Of a stretch of 64,000 nt of DNA, positions 39,370 through 43,742 are shown in pieces. Made by a program: the position numbers and the translations under genes. Under the pieces are notes generated by a model that had not been told where the DNA came from, made no database searches, and saw only the letters and a program-made list of their open reading frames with translations. Each line of letters opens with the position of its first letter. Position 1 is the stretch's first letter. The stretch is from assembly GCF_026967805.1 (NCBI RefSeq), contig NZ_JAPVBG010000003.1, positions 620,001-684,000 on the forward strand. The letters are read 5' to 3'. The DNA is from Blastococcus sp. VKM Ac-2987 (GTDB lineage: Bacteria; Actinomycetota; Actinomycetes; Mycobacteriales; Geodermatophilaceae).

Positions 39370-40350
39370 GTGCCCACCGTCGAGACCGTCCGTGGCCCCG
39401 TCGACACCGCCGATCTCGGCGCGACGCTCATGCACGAGCACGTGTTCGTGCTCTCCACCGAGCACGTGCAGAACTACGGCACCGGCGACTGGTGGGACGA
39501 GGACGAGCGGGTCGCCGACGCCGTCGACCAGCTGGACCAGCTCAAGGCGCTGGGCATCGACACGATCGTCGACCCGACCGTGTGGGGGCTCGGGCGCTAC
39601 ATCCCGCGGGTGCAGCGGGTCGCCGAGCAGACCGACATCAACATCATCGTGGCCACCGGGCTCTACACCTACGACGAGATCCCGCACCAGTACGAGCACC
39701 GCGGCCCCGGCCTGCTGCTCGACCTGCCGCGCGACCCGATGGTCGACGACTTCACCGGCGACATCCGCGACGGCATCGCCGGCACCGGCGTGAAGGCCGC
39801 GTTCCTCAAGTGCGTCATCGAGGCGAAGGGCCTGACGCCCGGCGTCGAGCGCACCGTGCGCGCCGTCGCCGCTACGCACCGGGAGACCGGCGCGCCGATC
39901 ACCGTGCACACCTCCTCGCACACCGGCGCGGGCCGGCTGGCCGTCCAGGTGTTCGGCGAGGAGGGCGTCGACCTGTCCAAGGTGGTCATCGGCCACGCCG
40001 GCGACAGCAACGACCTGGATTACCTCAGCGAGCTCGCCGACGCCGGCTGCCTGCTCGGCATGGACCGGTTCGGCCTCGACATCTACAACCCCACCTCGTC
40101 GCGCGTCGACACGATCGCCGCCCTGGCCGGGCGCGGCTACGCCGACCGGATGGTGCTGGCCCACGACGCGAGCTGCTACATCGACTACTTCCCGGGCGCC
40201 GACGGGCAGGCGGCCAAGCAGCAGATCGCGCCGAACTGGAACTACACCCACATCAGCAAGGACGTGCTGCCGATGCTCCGCGAGCGGGGGGTGACCGAGG
40301 AGCAGATCAGGCAGATGCTGGTCGACACCCCGCGGCGCTACTTCGAGTAG
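39370..40350 (+). CDS. Phosphotriesterase-like amidohydrolase
   Basis: A 326-residue amidohydrolase-superfamily TIM barrel of the PTE/PLL group. Metal ligands: MHEHVF (HxH on strand 1), the bridging Lys in AAFLKCVIEAKG (strand 4), VHTSSH (strand 5 His), VIGHAGDSNDLDYL (strand 6 His), and the Asp in VLAHDAS (strand 8). The C-terminal VTEEQIRQMLVDTPRRYFE is typical. Relatives are lactonases and phosphotriesterases, here more probably a lactonase or esterase acting with the acyl-CoA ligase upstream. It starts at GTG 39370 after a CTGGAGG site and ends in TAG. Confidence 0.92.
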   Translation: MPTVETVRGPVDTADLGATLMHEHVFVLSTEHVQNYGTGDWWDEDERVADAVDQLDQLKALGIDTIVDPTVWGLGRYIPRVQRVAEQTDINIIVATGLYTYDEIPHQYEHRGPGLLLDLPRDPMVDDFTGDIRDGIAGTGVKAAFLKCVIEAKGLTPGVERTVRAVAATHRETGAPITVHTSSHTGAGRLAVQVFGEEGVDLSKVVIGHAGDSNDLDYLSELADAGCLLGMDRFGLDIYNPTSSRVDTIAALAGRGYADRMVLAHDASCYIDYFPGADGQAAKQQIAPNWNYTHISKDVLPMLRERGVTEEQIRQMLVDTPRRYFE

Positions 40351-41832: not shown

Positions 41833-43227
41833 GTGCGCCTCCCTGACGGTCTCGTCGCCGTGGTCAAGCGCGACTGCCCGACCTGCGTGCTGGTCGAGCC
41901 GGTGCTGCGGGGGCTGGGCGCGGCCGTGTGGTGCCAGGACGACGCCGGCTGGTTCCCCGGGGACGACACCGAGCTGGAGCTGTCCTACCGGCTCGGCATC
42001 GAGACCGTCCCCACGCTCCTGCGGGTGACCGACGGCGAGGAGACCGCCCGGGTCGTGGGCTGGAGCCGGGAGCAGTGGGAGGAGCTGACCGGCGTGGCCG
42101 GGCTCGGCCCCGAGCTGCCCGAGCACCGGCCGGGCTGCGGCTCGCTGTCGGTGGACCCGTTCCGGGTCGACGCCCTGGAGGCGCGCTACGGCGGCAGCGG
42201 CCTGGCCAGCCGGCGGGTGGAGCTGGCCGACCTCGAGGACGAGCACGAGGCGTTGTTCGACCGCGGCTGGACCGACGGGCTGCCCGTCGTCCCGCCGACG
42301 CCGGAGCGGGTGGTGCGGATGCTGCGCGGCACCACCCGCGACCCGGCCGAGGTGGTCGCGCTCGTGCCGCCGGACCTGGTGGAGTGCACGGTCGAGAAGG
42401 TCGCCGTCAACGCGGTGATGGCCGGCTGCCTGCCGGAGCACCTGCCGGTCGTGCTGGCCGCGCTGGAGGCCGCCTCCGCGGAGGAGTTCGCGCTGCACGG
42501 TCTCCTGGCGACGACGTACTTCGCCGGCCCCGTCGTCGTGGTCAACGGCCCGGTGGCGGCCCGGATCGGGATGAACAGCGGCGTCAACGCGCTCGGGCAG
42601 GGCAACCGCGCGAACGCCACGATCGGCCGCGCGCTGCAACTGGTGGTGCGCAACGTGGGCGGGGGAGTACCGGGCGGGGTCGACCGCGCGACGCTGGGCA
42701 ACCCCGGCAAGTACACCTTCTGCTTCGCCGAGCGGGAGGAGACCAGCCCCTTCGCGCCGCTGGCCGCCGACCGCGGCGTCCCGGGCGACGCCGTCACGGT
42801 CTTCGCCGGATCGGGCGTGCAGCCGGTGGTGGACCAGCTCAGCCGTGACCCGGAGTCGCTGTCCCGGACGTTCGCCGCGTGCCTGCGGGTCAACGCGCAC
42901 CCCAAGCTGCCGATGGCCTTCGACGCGATGCTCGTCGTCTCCCCGGAGCACGGCCGGGTGTTCCGCGAGGCGGGCTGGGACCGGGCCCGCCTGCTGGCCG
43001 AGCTGGAGCAGCTGCTCGCGCTGCCGGCCGACGAGCTGCTGCGCGGCGCCGGCGGCATGGCCGAAGGCCTGCCCGCCCCGTTCGAGGGCACCCTCCCGAA
43101 GTTCCGCCCCGGCGGGCTGCTCGTCGCCTCCGCGGGCGGCGACGCCGGGTTGTTCAGCGCGATCGTCGGCGGCTGGGTGGCCGGTGCGACGGGAAGCGTC
43201 CCCGTGACACGAGAGGTGCGCGCATGA
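41833..43227 (+). CDS. Thioredoxin-fold fusion protein linked to UGSC selenoprotein
   Basis: A 464-residue two-part protein. Residues 1-100 look like a thioredoxin fold: strand LVAVVKRD, active-site CPTC (Cys15, Cys18), a helix with Pro-containing VEPVLRGLG, and TVPTLLRVTDGEE with the cis-Pro. Residues 125-464 are a globular domain I do not recognise by name, beginning LFDRGWTDGLPVVPPTPERVVRML, with VEKVAVNAVMAGCLPEHLPVVLAAL, GMNSGVNALGQGNRANATIGRAL and GLFSAIVGGWVAG; such sequences are found with UGSC-type proteins. The TGA overlaps the ATG of the UGSC gene (ATGA), so the two are translated together, and a redox function shared with it is likely. Start GTG at 41833, after a GGGAG-rich stretch. 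Confidence 0.75.
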   Translation: MRLPDGLVAVVKRDCPTCVLVEPVLRGLGAAVWCQDDAGWFPGDDTELELSYRLGIETVPTLLRVTDGEETARVVGWSREQWEELTGVAGLGPELPEHRPGCGSLSVDPFRVDALEARYGGSGLASRRVELADLEDEHEALFDRGWTDGLPVVPPTPERVVRMLRGTTRDPAEVVALVPPDLVECTVEKVAVNAVMAGCLPEHLPVVLAALEAASAEEFALHGLLATTYFAGPVVVVNGPVAARIGMNSGVNALGQGNRANATIGRALQLVVRNVGGGVPGGVDRATLGNPGKYTFCFAEREETSPFAPLAADRGVPGDAVTVFAGSGVQPVVDQLSRDPESLSRTFAACLRVNAHPKLPMAFDAMLVVSPEHGRVFREAGWDRARLLAELEQLLALPADELLRGAGGMAEGLPAPFEGTLPKFRPGGLLVASAGGDAGLFSAIVGGWVAGATGSVPVTREVRA

Positions 43228-43742
43228 GAACCGTCCTGGACCCGACCGGCGAGCGGCAGGCGGCCGCCCGGGAGCTGCTGCCCCGCCCCGAGTCGCTGCG
43301 CGGCCGCAGCGTCGGGCTGCTCGACATCAGCAAGGCCCGCGGCGACGTCGTCCTGGACCGGCTCGAGCAGCTGCTGACCGCGGACGGCGCGCTGGTGCGC
43401 CGGTACCGCAAGCCAACGTTCGCCCGGACCGCCCCGGTCGACCTGCGCCACGAGATCGCCGAGCAGTGCGAGGTGGTCATCGAGGCCCTCGCCGATTAGG
43501 GCTCCTGCACGTCGTGCAGTGTGCACGACATCGCAGACCTGGAGCGGCGCGGCGTGGTGGGGGTCTTCCTCGCCAGCGAGGCGTTCGCCGACGCCTCCCG
43601 GCTGCAGGGCGAGGCGCTCGGGTTCCCGGCGCCCTACGTCCTGGTGCCGCACCCGGTCCAGGACCGCACGGACGCCGAGCTGCAGGCGGTCGCCGAGCAG
43701 ATCTACCCGGCGGTGGTGAGCGCACTGACGACGGCCGGGTAG
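43224..43742 (+). CDS. UGSC-family selenoprotein with UAG-encoded selenocysteine
   Basis: A 172-residue protein if the TAG at 43497-43499 (codon 92) is read as selenocysteine. Before it: SVGLLDISKARGDVVLDRLEQLL, RKPTFARTAP, and CEVVIEALAD. After it in the same frame: GSCTSCSVHDIADLERRGV, then VGVFLASEAFADA, ALGFPAPYVLVPHPVQDRTDAEL and a normal C-terminal helix, ending at a second TAG (43740-43742). The UGSC motif of this family is exactly [Sec]-G-S-C at this place; usually the codon is TGA. Stopping at codon 92 would leave a truncated protein lacking the active motif. A SECIS-like hairpin follows the TAG. UAG-coded selenocysteine has been reported in Geodermatophilus and Blastococcus. The coupled upstream gene is a thioredoxin-fold protein. 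Confidence 0.85.
43511..43529 (+). promoter_or_regulatory. Candidate bacterial SECIS hairpin
   Basis: GTCGTGC (43511-43517) pairs perfectly with GCACGAC (43523-43529) around the loop AGTGT. The loop begins 19 bases after the recoded TAG, inside the range for bacterial SECIS elements, and contains GU, the feature bound by SelB. A second, alternative 6-bp hairpin (CTGCAC/GTGCAG, 43505-43519) overlaps it. Confidence 0.65.

Follow-up and report, generated by a model that had tools for sequence, protein, structure and literature searches.

Codon 92 of the UGSC-family gene, an in-frame TAG, is very probably read as selenocysteine (Sec) by the single tRNA-Sec detected in this genome, which carries a CUA anticodon, with SelB predicted to be directed by a hairpin downstream of the codon. 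The product would be a flavodoxin-like selenoenzyme working with the protein encoded immediately upstream, Sec being its predicted nucleophile. The features are listed in Table 1. Here "the window" is the whole stretch of 64,000 nucleotides that was analysed; it belongs to genome G000 (12 contigs, 99.7% complete).

Table 1. Features of the UAG-Sec locus and its tRNA (window positions unless a contig is given)
Feature	Location	Strand	Details and basis
Thioredoxin-domain partner gene	41833..43227	+	464 residues; GTG start at 41833; stop overlaps UGSC start
UGSC-family (seleno)protein gene	43224..43742	+	ATG to terminal TAG; 172 residues if codon 92 is read; NF041046 and PF24696 matches
In-frame TAG, codon 92, predicted Sec codon	43497..43499	+	Codons of homologues; CUA tRNA-Sec in the genome
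SECIS-like hairpin, 8 base pairs	43511..43529	+	Loop GTG at 43519-43521; folds, frozen codons, co-variation
Terminal TAG, inferred true stop of the UGSC gene	43740..43742	+	Frame reading; stops of relatives
CUA tRNA-Sec	L020 7017-7112 (G000:C1)		RF01852, 67.7 bits; anticodon CTA

A TAG codon within a conserved UGSC gene

The first-pass annotation of the window had placed the TAG in frame at the Sec position of a UGSC protein, with Gly-Ser-Cys next. Reading of the sequence confirms this: the codon is followed by GGC TCC TGC, the first of 80 open codons that run to the terminal TAG. The proposed family membership also holds. In profile searches the read-through protein scores 143.5 bits against NF041046 (UGSC_fam, cut-off 125) and 151.3 bits against PF24696 (cut-off 25), and both matches span codon 92. 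The family motif appears as a TAG stop followed by GSC, at a site where relatives carry Cys or UGA. An open frame by itself says little in DNA so rich in GC, because the other two forward frames of the same stretch are nearly stop-free too (0.00 and 0.17 stops per sequence in the TAG gene set).

A scan of named genomes gave at least 540 confirmed relatives, of which the best 80 were used. Their alignment, suggested earlier as a check, shows TGA in 61 and TAG in 19 at the same codon, and every one of the 19 TAG carriers among these best 80 of at least 540 is a Blastococcus or a Geodermatophilus. The closest UGSC protein in a tree of 88 rows is that of B. capsensis (91% identity to the window gene). 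In this tree the TAG genes adjoin TGA genes from metagenome genomes of Frankiales and Frankiaceae. TAG requires two changes on the best topology, but the AU test does not reject monophyly of the TAG genes (p-AU 0.266).

Selection was compared on the two sides of the codon in 18 TAG genes (the window gene and 17 of the 19 named TAG loci, excluding L150 and L151, which form a separate subgroup). The pN/pS ratio is 0.34 upstream of the TAG and 0.24 downstream, or 0.27 downstream with the hairpin region excluded. Protein-level constraint therefore continues past the TAG and is as strong there as before it. Under the standard code one TAG ends translation, and the gene could be taken as broken by a nonsense mutation or a sequencing error. 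This is highly improbable given the 19 named genomes that share the TAG at this position (best 80 of at least 540), the 72 UGSC matches with an internal TAG in Geodermatophilaceae, and a constraint after the codon no weaker than before it.

Recoding competes with release factors, as textbooks hold and as PMC8124441 states for UGA, so that the 91-residue form might be the main product and Sec read-through a selenium-dependent switch between two products. We regard this as improbable: the first 91 residues have no known separate function, and invariant residues of the family are found on either side of the Sec site. Database entries frequently lack the second half of such proteins, as had been anticipated for automated annotation: 59 of 120 relatives among the matches listed are N-terminal halves that stop just before a Sec codon that may be UAG or UGA, and end in IEALAD or VEALAD.

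UAG is a rare stop in the window, since 40 of the 41 ORFs of a crude gene call end in TGA and the TAG relatives mostly do so as well (terminal TGA in 17 and TAG in 2 of the 19 among the best 80 of at least 540). The sole called ORF ending in TAG is a phosphotriesterase-family gene (39370-40350); the UGSC gene, which also ends in TAG, lies outside the 41-ORF set. We speculate that this rarity eased the codon switch.

tRNA-Sec and the selenium machinery

A search of G000 with the tRNA-Sec model RF01852 returned eight matches (E <= 0.001). The top one, well above the cut-off of 47 bits (Table 1), has a CTA anticodon, a G discriminator and an encoded CCA. The second match over the cut-off is a tRNA-Ser according to ARAGORN, which assigns all seven remaining matches to Ser, Tyr, Leu and Met tRNAs; no UCA tRNA-Sec was therefore found among the eight. 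NCBIfam models detect selA (414 bits), selB (284) and selD (388), all over cut-off. The selA and selB genes lie directly downstream of the CUA tRNA gene, and selD is divergent on its opposite flank. The tRNA and the three genes whose presence the first-pass annotation had made decisive are thus all there, side by side, and together with the UGA homologues they argue well for codon 92 being read as Sec.

ARAGORN names the CUA tRNA-Sec tRNA-Pyl(cta), and a spurious pyrrolysine tRNA may thus enter automatic annotations. That label is what would favour decoding of the UAG as pyrrolysine, which is hardly credible for an RNA that scores 67.7 bits as tRNA-Sec and adjoins selA, selB and selD, at a site held by UGA and Cys in homologues.

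In the Sec pathway, SerRS loads the tRNA with serine, SelA and the selenophosphate of SelD convert it to Sec, and SelB delivers the product. Here, judging from the genes found, SerRS would put serine on the CUA tRNA-Sec and SelA would turn it into Sec using selenophosphate made by SelD. SelB would then bring the Sec-tRNA to UAG codon 92, directed by the predicted downstream hairpin, while a UAG lacking such a hairpin would still act as a stop.

A SECIS-like hairpin downstream of the codon

The hairpin, GTCGTGCA-GTG-TGCACGAC, starts 11 bases past the TAG and is common to the window gene and its UGA-coded relatives. Its fold is 1.3 to 1.7 (about 1.5) standard deviations more stable than shuffled sequences; it barely beats them, and the case for the hairpin therefore rests on conservation and not on stability. 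Codon shares and 62 distinct hairpin sequences were taken from the best 80 of at least 540 relatives plus the window's genome. At sites where the amino acid is conserved, the commonest codon has an average share of 0.98 within the hairpin in TAG and TGA genes alike, against 0.84 (TAG) and 0.61 (TGA) outside it. The serine at +7 is encoded by AGT in 20/20 TAG and 61/61 TGA genes.

Standard pairing occurs in 98.2% of the pair cells of the 62 sequences; five of the eight pairs are invariant and one is broken in 9 sequences. Two pairs are changed on both sides (14 of 500 shuffles reach as many). Such double changes fill 5 cells, compared with a shuffle mean of 0.4 and none of 500 shuffles as high. 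A C-G to G-C swap is present in the hairpins of the second UGSC gene of the window's genome and of L034-L037. We infer that recoding depends on this hairpin.

Sec codon and anticodon in Geodermatophilaceae

Mukai and colleagues reportedly described UAG-Sec decoding in Geodermatophilaceae in 2016. UGSC matches occur in 54 of 112 Geodermatophilaceae genomes and number 95 (rows counted by hand). A single internal TAG interrupts 72 of them, the other 23 are stop-free, and none has TGA. A tRNA-Sec was detected in 108 of the 112 genomes. The anticodon was read in 46 genes, 38 with CTA (37 genomes) and 8 with TCA. TCA belongs to the sole tRNA-Sec found in G066, G068 and G069 (genus g5), G070 (g6) and G072, G073 and G074 (g7); these three genera retain the UCA anticodon. 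The exact CUA tRNA pattern occurs in 76 of 397 genomes of the order, namely all 75 sampled Geodermatophilaceae and G230, genera g5-g7 lying outside this sample. UGSC matches from the other families of the 397 comprise 15 with TGA, 19 stop-free and none with TAG (hand count). In Geodermatophilaceae the Sec codon thus tracks the tRNA-Sec anticodon.

Two genomes stand apart. G058 carries the eighth TCA gene as an extra copy in addition to its CTA gene (L080, 1173-1263 of G058:C17, and L081, G058:C11), on a contig rich in transposase-like frames; a dual-codon state, a foreign gene and contamination are all possible. G230, which belongs to another family and is 82% complete, has the CUA pattern on one contig (G230:C194:787-847), which may reflect transfer or contamination.

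Formate dehydrogenase follows the anticodon too. The Sec-type enzyme (TIGR01553, E <= 1e-200) is found in 14 of the 112 genomes. All 13 loci that cover the Sec site, from CUA genera, have TAG there, followed by a hairpin with a GGTCT loop; in the fourteenth genome, G079, the site is not covered. In genus g7, where the three tRNA-Sec genes read are all UCA, the TIGR01591 matches of three genomes have one internal TGA (among the matches listed). The two loci read carry it within CNRT-stop-HAPSV, a site that resembles the one in the TAG genes. They are identical over the bases compared and come from G073, with a UCA tRNA-Sec, and G071, without a tRNA-Sec match.

A conserved thioredoxin-domain partner

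The partner stop and the UGSC start overlap as ATGA (43224-43227). A protein of Blastococcus sp. SYSU DS0619 shares 97% identity with the partner; together with the B. capsensis UGSC protein, this makes a Blastococcus the most likely source of the window. The partner gene lies beside UGSC at 19/19 TAG and 55/61 TGA loci (best 80 of at least 540), counts that take in loci cut by contig ends. The two therefore form a conserved gene pair. From the partner stop to the Sec codon there are 269 or 275 bases at TAG loci and mostly 269-381 bases, once 2398, at TGA loci. The N-terminal domain of the partner is thioredoxin-like, with a CPTC motif. The sequence signal for it is weak (best PDB E 0.0036, Pfam under cut-off) and that of the fold is clearer. 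The profile search assigned no Pfam family to the remainder of the protein.

In an Acidimicrobiales metagenome-assembled genome (bin111s; L186, 2550-3986), an in-frame TGA takes the place of the invariant Cys codon in the PG-C-GS motif of the partner; this codon is TGC in 54, TGT in 9 and TGA in 1 of the 64 partner loci read. This TGA is followed by an 8-bp hairpin; the Cys versions form hairpins there also. The L186 partner is a candidate selenoprotein, and as a single case it may be an error.

The genome of the window has a second TAG UGSC gene with its own hairpin (L097, G000:C6:10595-11083); two partner-like frames lie downstream of it.

Predicted fold and a possible remote resemblance to glycine-reductase-B-type proteins

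The UGSC protein is modelled (mean pLDDT 93) as an open alpha/beta sheet in which residue 92 immediately precedes a helix, and its structural matches are flavodoxin, Rossmann and receiver folds. A 2008 study describes UGSC fused to a domain named Unknown_1 and takes UGSC to have a thioredoxin-like fold (PMC2398784); the model instead favours a flavodoxin-like sheet.

When the UGSC profile is compared with that of GrdB-type proteins translated through their TGA, the two Sec positions align (probability 87%, score 48.3). The score falls to 35.0 with the motif masked, to 21.6 in the reversed control and to 20.9 or less in 100 column shuffles; with smaller alignments the probability is 1 to 41%. 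A direct profile search with PF07355 gave no match to the UGSC protein at E up to 10. By this one profile comparison, the Sec half of UGSC appears to bear a remote likeness to the Sec domain found in proteins of the glycine-reductase-B type, which is why Sec is predicted as the catalytic nucleophile. The product of the window gene would be a flavodoxin-like selenoenzyme acting with the thioredoxin-domain protein encoded upstream, and we infer from sequence and model that the partner reduces its Sec nucleophile.

Several short Actinomycetota proteins (L277, L278, L279, L281, L282, L283 and L285) match the end of PF07355. Their genes have an in-frame TGA one or two codons past the match, then a conserved-looking tail. 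These genes apparently encode small selenoproteins resembling GrdB, which standard translation truncates.

A wider scenario, which we advance tentatively and with some doubt, would have Geodermatophilaceae swapping their Sec codon within the family, UCA becoming CUA in the one tRNA-Sec gene along with TGA becoming TAG in UGSC paralogues and formate dehydrogenase, and three genera staying with UCA and UGA. In the same scenario, UGSC and its partner would together form an aerobic system of two proteins related to the glycine-reductase-B selenoenzymes, and Sec could also occur in the partner (TGA replaces the invariant Cys codon at one locus).

Comparison with known systems

The earlier suggestion that UAG-coded Sec was on record for these genera is borne out in print. 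Three genomes of Geodermatophilaceae are described as carrying CUA tRNA-Sec genes and as using UAG in formate dehydrogenase, in UGSC and in a single AhpC gene (Santesmasses and colleagues 2017, PMC5330540, citing Mukai 2016), and PMC5133445 states UAG-coded Sec for Blastococcus, also citing Mukai 2016. The same recoding having been reported in this group, the window gene is a clear new example and not a new phenomenon. As a clean case with all machinery genes located, it joins the few natural systems that use UAG for Sec. The additions made here are the UCA anticodon in three genera, the tracking by formate dehydrogenase, the conserved partner pair and the remote likeness to GrdB. Literature searches outside subscription journals turned up no paper treating the UCA/CUA split across the family. 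The codon is shown to track the anticodon across Geodermatophilaceae, and the UCA/UGA genera of the same family make the codon switch directly testable. The frequency with which databases truncate such proteins is shown as well. A 2026 review places the UGSC-containing protein among families with mostly unclear functions (PMC13188914); this uncharacterised selenoprotein is now linked to a conserved partner with a thioredoxin domain and has a remote link to proteins of the glycine-reductase-B type.

For Blastococcus saxobsidens an AhpC Sec gene has been reported, which we did not recover: the PF00578 matches listed for 23 genomes of the genus have no internal stop. In the window's genome TIGR01553 gives no match at E <= 1e-200, and the TIGR01591 match is free of internal stops. 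It thus shares with the published Geodermatophilaceae system a CUA tRNA-Sec, UAG at the Sec site and UGSC as a target, but differs from it in lacking such a formate dehydrogenase match and, among the matches listed, an AhpC gene with an internal stop, and in having two UAG-coded UGSC genes. The window gene resembles the UGSC family (NF041046, PF24696) in its profile scores over cut-off and its Sec-G-S-C motif, although that family is usually UGA-coded and this gene uses UAG. With the selenoproteins of the glycine/proline reductase B group (GrdB type, PF07355), UGSC shares a G-x-x-T-x-C-like motif after the Sec and a remote similarity in the C-terminal half; unlike them, it is a stand-alone protein of 172 residues without the GrdB N-terminal part.
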